Source: Methanococcoides sp. LMO-2 (GTDB lineage: Archaea > Halobacteriota > Methanosarcinia > Methanosarcinales > Methanosarcinaceae). From it: DNA of 64,000 nt. The notes beneath the pieces are model-generated. The model saw nothing but the letters and a program-made list of their open reading frames with translations, made no database searches and had not been told where the DNA came from. Made by a program: the position numbers and the translations under genes. Positions 3,173 through 56,904 of the stretch are shown piece by piece (the first letter of the stretch is position 1; the number at the start of each line of letters is the position of its first letter). The stretch lies in assembly GCF_038432375.1 (NCBI RefSeq), contig NZ_JBCAUS010000002.1:372001-436000 (forward strand). Reading direction: 5' to 3'.

Positions 3173-5092
3173 ATGTCAGAAGAATACAAGTGGTTTTTGA
3201 AAGACGCGGTCGTAGACACCGGAATGTGTACTATGTGCGGTGCCTGTGCTGCTGTTTGTCCCTATGAGATCATCGAATTCGATGAGAACGGGCCAAAATT
3301 AAAGGATGAGTGCTACAGGAACGGGCAGGGTGCCTGTAAGGATGTATGCCAGCGTGTCATGACAGATGCAGCCCGCATATCCATGAACGTGTTCAATTTC
3401 AAATCACTTCCTCCTACACCTGTGGGACAGTACCAGAAGATCGTCTCTGCCAGGGCTACTGATGCGGAGATCGCCGGGAAGGGGCAGGATGGCGGAGCTG
3501 TGACCGCTCTGTTAGGATACTGCTTTGACAATGGTCTCATCGATGGAGCTGTGACAACTGCAGGTTTCACAAAGCCTGATTCCTGCATCGTTGCAAGTAA
3601 AGAAGAACTTATGGACACTCAGGGAGCAAAATATTCAGCAGTTCCTGTGATGGCTGCACTGCGCCAGAACGATGCTGAAATGAAAAATGTTGCAATGGTG
3701 GGGGTTCCCTGCCAGACCTACGGTACCAGAAGGACACAGTTCTTTACAGGTCTGAACGTTCATCCGGTTGAGGTCGGAATGGACGGTGAAAAGGCCAACA
3801 TTCCTAATATCCCATATACCATCGGCCTGTTCTGCATGGAGAACTTCAACTACGAAAAGCTGTCCAATTATATGGAAAGCATAGGCATTGACCTTAACAA
3901 GGTCAGGAAATATTCCATCCATCTTGATGAAATGATCGTCACCACTGATGATGGTGAGATCGAGATCTCATTAAAGGATATCAAGGACTGCGTCTGGGAC
4001 GGATGCCGCATATGCAGGGACGCTGTCTCCAAAGTGGCAGACATATCAGCAGGACATGTGGGATCATCAACCGGATGGACAACCCTGATAGCCCGCAATG
4101 CCAAGGGCCTGGAACTTCTTGAAGCAGCTGAAAAAGCAGGTTACATTGAGACCATCGATGATGTTGATATCAGCATGTTGGAGGACTTTGCAGCCATCAA
4201 GATGAAAAAGTTCAGAAAGGAGCTTGACAACCGCCTTGAAGACGGGAAGAAGGTCAACTTCTACTGGGTACGCGACTATCCTGGTGTCAGGCCTGAGGTG
4301 AATGGTACTAACTTTGTAAAGATCAAGACCAATTCTGGTATCGCCCAGCACGATTACATTGCCAGGGTCGCGGAACTCGCAGAGAAGTACGGTGACGGTA
4401 GTCTTGAGCTTACAACAAGGAAGAGTGTTGAGATACAGGGTGTCAAAGGCGAAAATGTCGATGACCTTATGGCAGATGTCTATGGAAGTGGCTTAAAGAC
4501 CATTGGAATGGGATATGCCAATGCATGTCCGGGAATGGATTACTGCCCTGAGGGACTTGTCACCACCAAGGACCTTGCAAATGAGATCACCATGCAGTTC
4601 GCTCAGAAACTAACCCCGCACAAGATGAAGGTCGGTGTGGCAGGATGTCCGAACAGCTGTGTCAGGGCAGAAAGCAATGATATCGGTATCGTGGGACAGC
4701 TACGTCCTAAGATCGATACTGAAAAGTGTACCGGCTGCGGAAGGTGTACTGAACTCTGCAAACTGAACGCTATCACTGTGACTGCAGGAAAGGCTGTTAT
4801 CGACAGGGACCTGTGCATCAACTGTGGATGGTGTGTCAGGGGATGTCCGCATGAAGCGGCTGTTGAGGATGAGGTAGGCTATTCTGTCTGGATCGGCGGT
4901 AACGATGCAAGAAGGCCAACGAACGGCGTCCTTCTCAAGGCGTTCTGTACAAAGGAGGAGATCCCTGCTCTTATCGATAAGATAGGTAAGACATTTGTCA
5001 AGTACAGGACAAAACCCGGAAAGGAACGACTTGGTAACATCATTGAACTTGTAGGTCAGGGCCAGTTCATCAGTGAGGTCCTGAATGATTAA
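3173..5092 (+). CDS. F420-dependent sulfite reductase-like protein (FrhB/FpoF-type plus siroheme reductase)
   Basis: About 639 residues, matching the two-part build of coenzyme F420-dependent sulfite reductase (Fsr). An N-terminal [4Fe-4S] ferredoxin (CTMCGACAAVCP) leads into an FrhB/FdhB-type F420H2-oxidising module (to about residue 335). The C-terminal half is a nitrite/sulfite reductase domain with TTRKSVEIQGV and the siroheme-[4Fe-4S] ligands C-x5-C (ACPGMDYCPEG) and C-x3-C (GCPNSC). Two more [4Fe-4S] motifs are inserted after it (CTGCGRCTELC, CINCGWCVRGCP). All cluster ligands appear intact. Expected reaction: F420H2-driven reduction of sulfite or a related siroheme substrate, in the cytoplasm. 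The in-frame ATG at 3164 is possible, but a GAGATGA ribosome site favours 3173. A hairpin terminator follows. Confidence 0.85.
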   Translation: MSEEYKWFLKDAVVDTGMCTMCGACAAVCPYEIIEFDENGPKLKDECYRNGQGACKDVCQRVMTDAARISMNVFNFKSLPPTPVGQYQKIVSARATDAEIAGKGQDGGAVTALLGYCFDNGLIDGAVTTAGFTKPDSCIVASKEELMDTQGAKYSAVPVMAALRQNDAEMKNVAMVGVPCQTYGTRRTQFFTGLNVHPVEVGMDGEKANIPNIPYTIGLFCMENFNYEKLSNYMESIGIDLNKVRKYSIHLDEMIVTTDDGEIEISLKDIKDCVWDGCRICRDAVSKVADISAGHVGSSTGWTTLIARNAKGLELLEAAEKAGYIETIDDVDISMLEDFAAIKMKKFRKELDNRLEDGKKVNFYWVRDYPGVRPEVNGTNFVKIKTNSGIAQHDYIARVAELAEKYGDGSLELTTRKSVEIQGVKGENVDDLMADVYGSGLKTIGMGYANACPGMDYCPEGLVTTKDLANEITMQFAQKLTPHKMKVGVAGCPNSCVRAESNDIGIVGQLRPKIDTEKCTGCGRCTELCKLNAITVTAGKAVIDRDLCINCGWCVRGCPHEAAVEDEVGYSVWIGGNDARRPTNGVLLKAFCTKEEIPALIDKIGKTFVKYRTKPGKERLGNIIELVGQGQFISEVLND

Positions 5093-49555: not shown

Positions 49556-51532
49556 TCATCGCTTCCTCAGTATATATGCGATCGATAGCAAACCAATGAT
49601 CGCAAATATAGCTTCGAATCCTGGTGTTCCCTTATCTTCGGGCGGAGCTGAAGCCTCTATGACTTCTTGCAGGTCTTCCTGCATTAGAAGAGAAACACCC
49701 AGGAATGCCGGATCTTCAGAGTAGTAGGCGTATAGGCTATTCAACAATTCATTGACTTTTGCATCATCAGATTCTTCGCTAACGACAACTGTGATCAGGG
49801 CATATTCTTCAGCCCCTCGGATCTCTCCCATTTTTGAAGCAACGGAATCCTCTATTTCTTCAGCTGTCAGATCGACCTCATCCATGTCATGGGCCATTAG
49901 AACAAAGAGATCAACATTGGATGTAATGTTCTCTATAGCTGATCTGTCATAAGCTGCCGGAATTCCTGCAACCAGTAATACATTTCCAGCTGTTCTTTCA
50001 TGGATGGCTTCCAAAAGCAGTGCATTTTCCAGACACACCTGTTCCAGTTCAGCAGGATCACAGGTTTTCAGGCTTATGTATATGCCATCAAATCCTGCAA
50101 GTGATTTCGTGTTGTAATCAAGGACTGCCTCGACCGCCTCAATTGAACTTTCACCACTTCCATCCACGAAATCCTTCTTTTCATCAAGGATCATTGCGTG
50201 GACTGTTATGTCATTTTCATGGGCCGATTTTATGAATCTCTCAGAGCTCCAGATATTGTCGATATCCGTCCTCAGGAACACTGTATTTATGCCACTGTCC
50301 TTCAGATCGTTTATAACAGAAATCGATCTGTCGTCAGAATAAGGCTCAAAGATAAATATCGCTTGTTTTCCAGCCTCAGAGGCAGGCATATTAATATCTT
50401 TTAAAATGGGCTGAGGTACCTGTACATCACTTTCCGGCAAGGACTCAGGCTCTTGCGTAACGATCTCTCCAGGCATGAAAACGGTTGGTTCCTGTGGTGT
50501 ATATTTACGTACAATTGCATAATCCACAGCCATATAGCCCATATTATTTATGGTGCTGGCTGTACTTGAATACAGGTATAATTTCAATTCATTGTCCGGG
50601 ATGTGGTCAATTATAGTTTCATCTTCATTTTCAATGTAATAGGAATAATCCATCCTTGTATCTCTTACCCCATTCTTGAACCATGAAACGTTTTTGAAAT
50701 CACCATCCTGATACCATGCAATACCTGATGTATACCATGTTCCCTCTGCAATACCAAGGTTTGTCAGATCCCATGACTTGAACCTATCGTCATCCCTGGT
50801 CAGAGTCCATGAAACCTTACTCTCATTGGCGAGTTCTGTACGAAGGATTATCCTATTTTCGGTTTCATCTTGCGGATCAAGAAGTCCCTGCTCCAGTACC
50901 GGACCTATTGGTTCGGACCCTGTGGTAACCTTCATTCTCTTGACAACGAACATTGAGTTTATCCCAAATGCATCCTTGGAAGTTATTTTTGCAAAATCCG
51001 TGGGGTGTTTTACTGGGTTTACCAGGCGGAGGATCCCATTGCTAATCTCAATCTCTCCTCCTGCATTTGTATCAGATCTCCAGTTCGCAATACCCAGGCG
51101 CGATTCGACAAAATCATCAAAGAAATCGAACGTGGAAGCACCATTGCTAATGTCAGTTGCAGCTGGATTTCCATAATGCATTGTCACATCTGTCATTCCA
51201 TTAGCAGGAATAAATGGGACATTGATCCATATAATAGCACTCTCTGATCCAGCATCCCACTCTTCGATCCAATGATACAATTGCCTGTCATTTATGGAAA
51301 ATCTGATATCTGACCCATCCGGATTTGCTTTTGAGAAATCGAAATTTGAAGGATCCAGCAGAACCTGTACCTGGTAATTGGTTAGATCCTTACCAGAGTT
51401 CTCTTTTATTGTCAGTTCTTCAGAGAAATCCCATTCTCCTCCCCCTGTATTGGATAAAGCCAGGCCTGTACCCATCATTCCGGTCAAAAGAGCTATGGAA
51501 ATGAGCAGAACTAAGATAATGTTTCTTTTCAT
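49556..51532 (-). CDS. DUF2341 surface protein with TIM-barrel-like domain and PGF-CTERM anchor
   Basis: About 658 residues from the ATG at 51532 (AGGTGAG ribosome site; an in-frame GTG lies at 51541). Order: Sec signal peptide (KRNIILVLLISIALLTGMMG), DUF2341 beta-sandwich with WIEEWDAGSESAIIWINVPFI and MHYGNP (to about 115), a concanavalin-like region (to about 350), then an alpha/beta region resembling a glycosidase-type barrel (INTVFLRTDIDNIW; TVHAMILDEKK; VLLVAGIPAAYD). The last 25 residues, GTPGFEAIFAIIGLLSIAYILRKR, are a PGF-CTERM signal processed by archaeosortase and lipid-anchored. It is therefore a cell-surface protein; a carbohydrate-related activity is possible but unproven. Confidence 0.85.
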   Translation of the reverse strand: MKRNIILVLLISIALLTGMMGTGLALSNTGGGEWDFSEELTIKENSGKDLTNYQVQVLLDPSNFDFSKANPDGSDIRFSINDRQLYHWIEEWDAGSESAIIWINVPFIPANGMTDVTMHYGNPAATDISNGASTFDFFDDFVESRLGIANWRSDTNAGGEIEISNGILRLVNPVKHPTDFAKITSKDAFGINSMFVVKRMKVTTGSEPIGPVLEQGLLDPQDETENRIILRTELANESKVSWTLTRDDDRFKSWDLTNLGIAEGTWYTSGIAWYQDGDFKNVSWFKNGVRDTRMDYSYYIENEDETIIDHIPDNELKLYLYSSTASTINNMGYMAVDYAIVRKYTPQEPTVFMPGEIVTQEPESLPESDVQVPQPILKDINMPASEAGKQAIFIFEPYSDDRSISVINDLKDSGINTVFLRTDIDNIWSSERFIKSAHENDITVHAMILDEKKDFVDGSGESSIEAVEAVLDYNTKSLAGFDGIYISLKTCDPAELEQVCLENALLLEAIHERTAGNVLLVAGIPAAYDRSAIENITSNVDLFVLMAHDMDEVDLTAEEIEDSVASKMGEIRGAEEYALITVVVSEESDDAKVNELLNSLYAYYSEDPAFLGVSLLMQEDLQEVIEASAPPEDKGTPGFEAIFAIIGLLSIAYILRKR

Positions 51533-51541
51533 ACAACTCAC

Positions 51542-51853
51542 CTATCTATTAATTGCTCTATCTTCATTTATATTATATGTGCTACTTCTGGCCCTGGATG
51601 AAGCCATGGTAAGAGAATCTGGAGCTGTTCATTCTCAGGAAGGTAGGCATTGCTTACAGAGGAACTATTAAGAGGATACAGGACATAATTAGGTTAGCTG
51701 GGGGGCAATAACCCTTTCTTTAATCTTTCTTTAACTCCCTACAAACCCGATATTTATTGCTTCCAGGAACGCAATTATAAACTAAGAACTCAAAATGAAT
51801 CTTAAAGGATTCACCAACATAATGATGGAGGTATTACATTTACCGATGTTACA
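51542..51853. other. 312-base divergent intergenic region
   Basis: It contains the AT-rich promoter of the surface-protein gene near 51560-51590 and the leader of the MsrA-like gene. A strong GGAGGT ribosome site at 51828-51833 is unusually far (about 20 bases) from the MsrA-like ATG at 51854 and better serves an out-of-frame ATG at 51846. Confidence 0.45.
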
Positions 51854-52360
51854 ATGGAGCTTTTTGAGAAGCTAAGGAGCGAAGGATATGAGGTCGCCAC
51901 TTTTGCTGCGGGAAGTTTCTGGATAGCAGAAGCCATCTTTCGCAGGGTTCAGGGCGTTGTCGCGACTGCAGTAGGTTACATGGGAGGAGAACTTGAATAT
52001 CCTACCTATGAAGAAGTAAGCGTGGGAGATACCGGACACTTTGAAGTTGTCCAGATCGTTTATGATCCGAATGTTGTGCCTTATGTAAAGCTCCTGGAAT
52101 TGTTCTGGGAACTGCATAACCCAACGGCTCCTGATGAAAAAGGGGAAAAAGTGCCAGGTCAATATGGTTCAGTTATTTTTTACCATAACGATGAGCAGAA
52201 GTCACTTGCAATACTTTCAAAAAGGGAGATCGAGAGTTCCGGGAAATTCAGGAAGGACATTATCACCGAGATACGTCCTGCTGCAAGATTTTTCAGGGCA
52301 AAGGAATATCACCAGCAATATTTTGAAAAAACTGCCTCTGGCGGACATATCATAAAATGA
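51854..52360 (+). CDS. MsrA paralog lacking the catalytic cysteine
   Basis: 168 residues, nearly full length for peptide methionine sulfoxide reductase A. Family blocks are clear: EVATFAAGSFWIAEAIFRR, AVGYMGGELEYPTYEEV, GHFEVVQIVYDP, FWELHNPTA, QYGSVIFYH and EYHQQYFEK. The universal GCFWG motif reads GSFWI here (Cys to Ser, codon AGT). HDPT is HNPT, and QYR is QYG. The protein contains no cysteine at all. It therefore cannot use the known MsrA sulfenic-acid mechanism and may be a binding protein or a decaying copy. The frame is intact. The nearest strong ribosome site is about 20 bases upstream, so start and expression are uncertain. Confidence 0.85.
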   Translation: MELFEKLRSEGYEVATFAAGSFWIAEAIFRRVQGVVATAVGYMGGELEYPTYEEVSVGDTGHFEVVQIVYDPNVVPYVKLLELFWELHNPTAPDEKGEKVPGQYGSVIFYHNDEQKSLAILSKREIESSGKFRKDIITEIRPAARFFRAKEYHQQYFEKTASGGHIIK

Positions 52361-55029: not shown

Positions 55030-56904
55030 TCACTCGCAACCAGCTTTCTCAGATTCCATGTGCCTGAGCTCTTTTCGCTTGATCTTGCCACCAATGGTCT
55101 TTGGCAGGTCCTTCACGAATTCAACGGCTCTCGGGTACTTGTATGGGGCTGTTGTGTGCTTCACATGGTCCTGAAGCTCTTTTATCAGGTTCTCCGATGG
55201 CTCGACCCCGTCATGAAGTACTATGAAAGCCTTGACGATCATACCCCTGATGTTGTCCGGAACACCGATCACAGCGGATTCCTGCACAGCAGGATGTTCA
55301 AGGAGTGCACTTTCCACCTCGAACGGGCCGATACGGTATCCTGAGCTCTTAATAACGTCGTCATCGCGGCCCACGAACCAGAAGTAACCGTCCTCGTCCC
55401 TGTATGCCTTGTCACCGGTGTAGTAGAAGCCGTTCTGGAATGACTTTTCGTTCTCTTCATCGTTGTTGACATATTTCACAAGAAGGCCCGGTGGGCGTGG
55501 GTCAAGTGAGATCGCGATCCTTCCTTCCTCGAAGTTGTCCACCGGATTGCCGTCATCATCGTGCAGTTCGATATTCCATCCCGGAGATGGTTTTCCCATT
55601 GAGCCGGGCTTGTTCTCCAGGCAGGCGAAGGATGCGATAGCACAGCAGGTTTCTGTCTGGCCGTAGCCTTCGTAGATGTTAAGACCTGTTCCTTCCTTCC
55701 ACACCTTGATGACCTCAGGATTCAGCGGCTCGCCTGCACTACAGCAGTGACGGAGCTGGGTGAGGTCGAACTTGCTCAGGTCTGCAAGGATGAGCATCCT
55801 GTAGATAGTTGGAGGACAGCAGAAGGATGTGACCTCATACTTCTCGATAAGCGGAAGAAGTTCTGTTGCCTTGAACTTGCCTCTGATGTCATACACGAAA
55901 ACGCATGCTCCGGCAATCCACTGGCCGAAGATCTTTCCCCATGCACATTTTGCCCAACCGGTGTCCGAGTAGGTGAAATGCAGGTCGTTCTCGGTCAGAT
56001 CCTGCCACAACTCTGCAGTCACCCTGTGACCCAGCGGGTATGCATGGTTGTGAAGCACCATCTTTCCCTTGCCGGTAGTCCCTGATGTGAAGTATATCAG
56101 CAACGGGTCGGTGGAGCTGGTAAGTGCAGGCATGGACACCGAATGATGTGACACAGGTGCAGGATATAGCAGCTCATACTGGAAGCTGATCCAGTCTTCT
56201 CTTTCCCCGTCAACCACCATGCATTCCTTAAGGGATGCACATTCCTCGCGGACCTCATCGAACTTCGGAGCATTTTCCAGATCGGTAACTGCCATCTTGA
56301 ACTTGCCGGCATTGATCCTGTACTGGAGATCGCTTGGCGTAAGAAGTGTAGGACACGGGCACACAATAGCACCAAGCTTTGCCAGTGCGATCACAAAGAT
56401 CCACCATTCAGGCACGCGGTGGAGCATCAGCATGACCCTGTCACCCTTGTTGATACCGTATTTAAGAAGAATGTTCGCTGCCTGGTTGGATAGTTTCATC
56501 AGGTCCCTGAAGGTGTACTTTTTCTCCTCACCCTTCTGGTTCACCCAGATCATTGCAAGCTTGTTGCGGTCTTCCTTTGCCCAGGCATCAATGATGTCAT
56601 AACCGAAATTAAAGAACTCAGGCATCTCATTGTTCCACTCTTCCCTGGTCCTGTCGTAATCACACATATTACGAGGGAACTCTTTAGTACTCAATTTGTC
56701 TGCGTTCTTCATGAAAGAATTATCATCCACCTGCTCCAGCTGGGTTCGCGGGATCCTCCAGAGTCTTCCCACATTCAGGCCGTCCATGGTTCCTTCCTCA
56801 AGCCATGCATGGATCGTCTTTGTCTCAACCCTCAGATGTTTGGCCACTTCCTGTGGCGTCAGATAATGTTGCTTTTGCGCCGTCATTGGGCATTTTGGAA
56901 GCAT
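55030..56904 (-). CDS. acyl-CoA synthetase with N-terminal excisionase/MerR-type HTH domain
   Basis: 624 residues. Residues about 13-58 (YLTPQEVAKHLRVETKTIHAWLEEGTMDGLNVGRLWRIPR) form an excisionase-family (HTH_17) winged helix. After a linker the rest is an ACSM-like AMP-forming acyl-CoA synthetase: [59 protein letters not shown], and the lysine in PKTIGGKIKR. It is paralogous to the ligase at 13958. The fusion of a DNA-binding domain to a complete ligase is unusual; the enzyme might sense its substrate and regulate its own gene (inference). In-frame ATGs at 56904 and 56886 are both possible starts. Confidence 0.88.
   Translation of the reverse strand: MLPKCPMTAQKQHYLTPQEVAKHLRVETKTIHAWLEEGTMDGLNVGRLWRIPRTQLEQVDDNSFMKNADKLSTKEFPRNMCDYDRTREEWNNEMPEFFNFGYDIIDAWAKEDRNKLAMIWVNQKGEEKKYTFRDLMKLSNQAANILLKYGINKGDRVMLMLHRVPEWWIFVIALAKLGAIVCPCPTLLTPSDLQYRINAGKFKMAVTDLENAPKFDEVREECASLKECMVVDGEREDWISFQYELLYPAPVSHHSVSMPALTSSTDPLLIYFTSGTTGKGKMVLHNHAYPLGHRVTAELWQDLTENDLHFTYSDTGWAKCAWGKIFGQWIAGACVFVYDIRGKFKATELLPLIEKYEVTSFCCPPTIYRMLILADLSKFDLTQLRHCCSAGEPLNPEVIKVWKEGTGLNIYEGYGQTETCCAIASFACLENKPGSMGKPSPGWNIELHDDDGNPVDNFEEGRIAISLDPRPPGLLVKYVNNDEENEKSFQNGFYYTGDKAYRDEDGYFWFVGRDDDVIKSSGYRIGPFEVESALLEHPAVQESAVIGVPDNIRGMIVKAFIVLHDGVEPSENLIKELQDHVKHTTAPYKYPRAVEFVKDLPKTIGGKIKRKELRHMESEKAGCE

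Follow-up and report, generated by a model that had tools for sequence, protein, structure and literature searches.

The window analysed here, a stretch of 64,000 nucleotides from Methanococcoides sp. LMO-2, encodes a protein of the MsrA family in which the catalytic Cys is replaced by Ser. The essential catalytic residue has been lost and the rest of the protein is under purifying selection, the combination that characterises a pseudoenzyme. With somewhat better than even confidence, we propose that this protein (Ser-MsrA) is a conserved MsrA-family pseudoenzyme, maintained by selection after loss of the Cys and working by non-catalytic binding of sulfoxide. Its features, all on the forward (+) strand, are as follows.

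51738..51853 (+), conserved upstream region, from an alignment of four same-genus orthologues
51854..52360 (+), Ser-MsrA paralogue gene, 168 aa with Ser21 at the catalytic Cys position, from the ORF list, PF01625/TIGR00401 matches and orthologues in 13 further genomes
51914..51916 (+), Ser21 codon AGT at the catalytic Cys position; AGT/AGC in 14/14 orthologues
51923..51925 (+), Ile24, replacing the near-invariant Gly of GCFWG; the clade has Arg, Ile or Val
52043..52045 (+), Glu64, equivalent to E. coli MsrA Glu94 (sulfoxide oxygen) in the 7ot4 alignment; kept and invariant in the Ser clade
52082..52117 (+), helix 77-88 (YVKLLELFWELH), conserved more strongly than any other stretch in both the Ser clade and the degenerate branch beside it, from alignment and model
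52127..52159 (+), altered loop standing for canonical RQGPDIG; Asp129 equivalent gone, low model confidence
52160..52168 (+), Gln103-Tyr104-Gly105 (canonical QYR); Tyr104 equals E. coli Tyr134 and is kept, Gly in the window's genus only

The initial annotation had described an intact frame of 168 codons with the motifs GSFWI, HNPT and QYGS and with no Cys, and both coordinates and residues were correct. The complete absence of Cys is real but not remarkable in itself: the catalytic Cys is the only one in the canonical MsrA of this genome, so one replacement suffices to leave the protein Cys-free. The change from QYR to QYG is present in the window protein but confined to the four same-genus orthologues, the ten others having QYR (nine) or QYK (one). 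HNPT in place of HDPT is fixed across the Ser clade without being exclusive to it, as one Cys-containing MsrA (L070) has it too. A further change had been overlooked: positions 92-101 (canonical T..NRQGPDIG), which are invariant or nearly so among 40 canonical relatives, are either released from constraint or substituted, the Asp that corresponds to E. coli Asp129 among them. Upstream of the gene lies an AT-rich, promoter-like block at about 51750-51759. GGAGGT is found at 51827-51832, 21 bases 5' of the ATG, and this spacing makes the start codon uncertain.

The protein matches PF01625 (PMSR) with 178.8 bits (E 1.1e-52, profile positions 2-149 of 153) and the NCBIfam model TIGR00401 (msrA) with 171.8 bits against a cut-off of 108.1, and exceeds the curated cut-offs of both. 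Because it passes that of TIGR00401, automatic annotation labels it an active MsrA. Modelling, suggested at the outset as a check, predicts an intact MsrA fold: the AlphaFold model has a pLDDT of 89.6, falling to about 70 in the loop block, and a fold search with it returned 45 matches at E ≤ 0.001. These are MsrA structures, except for entry 7c13, which is titled as a glutaredoxin complex and contains a chain named MsrA; they include 3bqf and the C. oremlandii U16S structure 4lwk.

Residues were mapped by aligning the window protein to E. coli MsrA chain 7ot4, which pairs Ser21 with Cys51, Tyr42 with Tyr82, Glu64 with Glu94, Lys99 with Asp129 and Tyr104 with Tyr134. Two features of active enzymes are missing. 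The catalytic Cys or Sec of GCFWG is Ser in 14/14 orthologues, and in the RQGxDxG loop Gln96, Asp99 and Gly101, invariant in the 40 canonical relatives, are substituted in the Ser orthologues. The sulfoxide pocket, which in E. coli comprises Glu94, Tyr82, Tyr134, Trp53 and Phe52 (PMC8417374), is complete in the window protein (Glu64, Tyr42, Tyr104, Trp23 and Phe22) and invariant over the 14 Ser genes, bar position 42 (11 Tyr, 3 Phe). Set against those 40 canonical relatives, the Ser genes retain as invariant Phe22, Trp23, Glu26, Gly41, the Gly pair 44-45, Thr60-Gly61-His62, Glu64, His88, Gln103-Tyr104, Ser106 and Tyr152, while Cys21, Gly24, Asp89 and loop 92-101 are altered. Positions 89-102 have a mean entropy of 1.28 bits in the Ser genes and 0.56 in canonical MsrA; for helix 77-88 the corresponding values are 0.15 and 1.02 bits.

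A search of 112 Methanosarcinaceae genomes identified 14 GSFW genes. Ten of these belong to genus g10, which includes records named Methanolobus and is referred to below by that name, and four to the window's genus. The same Ser is thus found in 13 further genomes from two genera, always as an AGY codon. Across 238 genomes of the class, a profile of the Ser clade gave these 14 genes 329-361 bits and no other MsrA more than 246. No Ser orthologues were found outside the two genera among 393 sampled genomes of the phylum, and among the best 80 matches of a scan of genome contigs, GSFW appeared only in three Methanosarcinaceae loci; beyond these matches, the Cys may have been lost independently in other lineages. 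This distribution bears on the possibility of a sequencing error that turned TGT into AGT. The two codons are one base apart, but AGT or AGC is present in 13 other assemblies, which leaves an error with a negligible probability, and it was ruled out.

Selection was assessed with single-ratio codon models, which gave an omega of 0.105 for the Ser genes, in line with pairwise dN/dS values of 0.05-0.24. For canonical MsrA of the same two genera omega is 0.147 and 0.056, and the Ser genes are constrained as strictly as these. Together with the conserved non-coding upstream region, this indicates that the gene is under selection. The presence of Ser-MsrA is patchy (4/11 genomes of the window's genus and 10/27 of Methanolobus), as might be expected of a decaying duplicate that has remained intact by chance. 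Against such decay, which we regard as very improbable and reject on the selection result, stand whole frames in 14/14 genomes, the low omega and the upstream conservation; the earlier argument that an intact frame speaks against simple decay is borne out. Both outcomes that had been named as fatal to the initial annotation, a lack of orthologues with relaxed selection and a sequencing error, are therefore excluded.

In two trees the Ser genes form one clade with five genes of genus g11 (L058-L062), with support of 100/96 and 100/98. Separation of the Ser genes from the g11 genes as a clade of their own received low support (55/59 and 46/12). The g11 branch is long, and its placement beside the Ser genes could be an artefact. 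Its members carry GASW, GACW, GTTW or GSSW, with Ala, Thr or Ser at the Ser21 position; Glu64 is Gln in 4/5, Phe22 and Tyr104 are lost and EYHQQY is mostly gone. Although both the Cys and the greater part of the pocket are gone, omega in this branch is 0.170, so purifying selection still acts on it. As the pocket is mostly lost in a branch that is still selected, sulfoxide binding may not be common to all members. The shared codon class, taken together with the tree, leads us to infer a single loss of the Cys, through TGY to AGY, in Methanosarcinaceae. Within the Ser clade, the genes of the window's genus group with the Methanolobus-type G057 (99/94). The Ser genes of the window's genus and G057 share 75% identity but their canonical genes 65%, a difference suggestive of horizontal transfer from one genus to another.

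Other MsrA variants were encountered among the relatives. A separate, Cys-containing paralogue in genera g10 and g11 (L051-L057, at about position 5000 of each) has an insertion after HDPT that resembles a repeated IHDP segment and usually a Cys-bearing C-terminal tail. In genus g12, three MsrA proteins (L038, L047, L049) have HDSE or HDSK for HDPT and an insertion before HYRS or HYQS, with GCFWG intact. The canonical MsrA of genome G023 (L036:1706-2186) is split across two frames, as a frameshift or an assembly error would leave it.

A canonical MsrA is also present in the LMO-2 genome, directly behind MsrB. The genome holds two PF01625 genes, Ser-MsrA and this canonical copy (L001), which has the motifs GCFWG, HDPT and QYRS; it begins 18 bases downstream of an MsrB-like gene (recognised by eye). 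Ser-MsrA stands alone in the window, divergent from a DUF2341 surface protein with a PGF-CTERM anchor (49556-51541, -); the same arrangement occurs at L034 and L035, and not at L033. In Methanolobus, the divergent neighbour is a hexapeptide-repeat protein (gamma-carbonic-anhydrase-like by eye) at 10/10 loci, and beyond it most loci have a winged-helix gene and a TIR-domain gene. For example, a TIR_2-domain gene at L044:3549-4106 lies with a small winged-helix gene. At four of the ten Methanolobus loci (L039, L042, L043, L048), Ser-MsrA is followed on the same strand by related PAS histidine kinase genes, and the neighbours of the g11 relatives are ABC transporter genes. Comparison of the window with the Methanolobus and g11 loci found no operon partner or arrangement common to all genera, so no function was inferred from gene context. 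Elsewhere in the window (55030-56904, -), an acyl-CoA synthetase-like AMP-binding enzyme is fused in one frame to an N-terminal excisionase-type HTH_17 domain; its orthologue at L034 matches it in length and at the N-terminus, and that at L033 retains an HTH-type N-terminus.

MsrA chemistry depends on a thiol that attacks the sulfoxide sulfur (PMC6210582). With the pocket intact and Ser at the Cys site, Ser-MsrA would be expected to bind its ligand without reducing it. Ser-MsrA presumably descends from a duplicated MsrA whose nucleophilic Cys gave way to Ser in that single TGY-to-AGY step; the alignment shows that constraint on the RQGxDxG loop was then lost and the sulfoxide pocket retained. 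By the known mechanism, the lack of a thiol means no sulfenic intermediate and no thiol-dependent reductase. Selection keeps the protein alongside active MsrA. Ser-MsrA would most probably hold its ligand, either the S-methionine sulfoxide of an oxidised protein or a small sulfoxide, in the Phe22/Trp23/Tyr42/Glu64/Tyr104 pocket without catalysis, and would pass on a signal or protect the site by way of a surface to which helix 77-88 contributes. A more specific form of this proposal, which we put forward tentatively and consider unlikely, is a natural sulfoxide receptor that reads methionine-S-sulfoxide or DMSO-like sulfoxides, possibly feeding the adjacent PAS histidine kinase in some Methanolobus.

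The pocket may instead be incidental, with the MsrA fold kept for protein-protein contact, for instance with active MsrA or another oxidised-protein factor. We keep such a scaffold or partner role as a strong rival, clearly less probable than sulfoxide binding, because the g11 genes lack the pocket and are nevertheless selected. Helix 77-88 is conserved in both branches (mean entropy 0.18 bits versus 1.02 in canonical MsrA) and holds four of seven newly fixed positions (hypergeometric p 0.0008, uncorrected for relatedness). However, its LELFWELH motif is not confined to these branches: at least one Methanolobus MsrA that has the Cys (L021) carries it too, so it may be partly ancestral. The pocket residues of the 14 Ser genes are moreover nearly as invariant as those of active enzymes. 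A new catalytic activity that uses Ser, Glu64, His62 and the tyrosines, for instance with a different sulfur compound or a methylated one as substrate, seems quite improbable. Ser has remained unreplaced in 14 genes over a codon tree length of 8.36, although reversion to Cys takes one base, and His62, Glu64 and Tyr104 are invariant. Yet we know of no Ser-based chemistry in the MsrA fold, and the g11 genes vary at the Ser21 position and mostly have Gln for Glu64. The initial annotation had offered two possible functions, binding of methionine sulfoxide that is not followed by reduction, or a new activity. Dismantling of the g11 pocket under persisting selection speaks for binding or scaffolding rather than new chemistry, and we infer that the former is the more likely function of Ser-MsrA.

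A naturally fixed Cys-to-Ser MsrA would provide a test case for whether methionine sulfoxide serves as a signal, beyond its repair. It may also offer a ready-made, non-reducing binder of S-methionine sulfoxide. No earlier description of an MsrA pseudoenzyme was found among the openly available papers searched.

Among known systems, canonical MsrA (PF01625, TIGR00401) shares with Ser-MsrA its fold, length, sulfoxide-binding residues and EYHQQY segment. Ser-MsrA differs in the Cys-to-Ser replacement, the loss of the Gly after the motif, the loss of the RQGxDxG loop with its Asp129 equivalent, and HNPT for HDPT. The g11 relatives belong to the same clade (100/96), have likewise lost the Cys and have helix 77-88 and Gln67 in common with the Ser genes; unlike these, they have also lost the sulfoxide pocket and the C-terminal EYHQQY. 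In the archaeon Haloferax volcanii, MsrA does more than reduce methionine sulfoxide, as it moonlights in ubiquitin-like modification; its C13S change abolishes reductase activity and this second role alike (PMC5587910). Since C13S abolishes it, a role of this kind is unlikely for Ser-MsrA. Engineered variants offer a further parallel: Haloferax C13S, C. oremlandii U16S (4lwk) and N. meningitidis C51S, the last solved as a substrate-bound MsrA domain (3bqf; PMC6210582), carry Cys or Sec to Ser at the identical site. Whereas these are laboratory mutants, Ser-MsrA represents a natural lineage that has been kept for a long time and in which the loop before QYR has changed as well.
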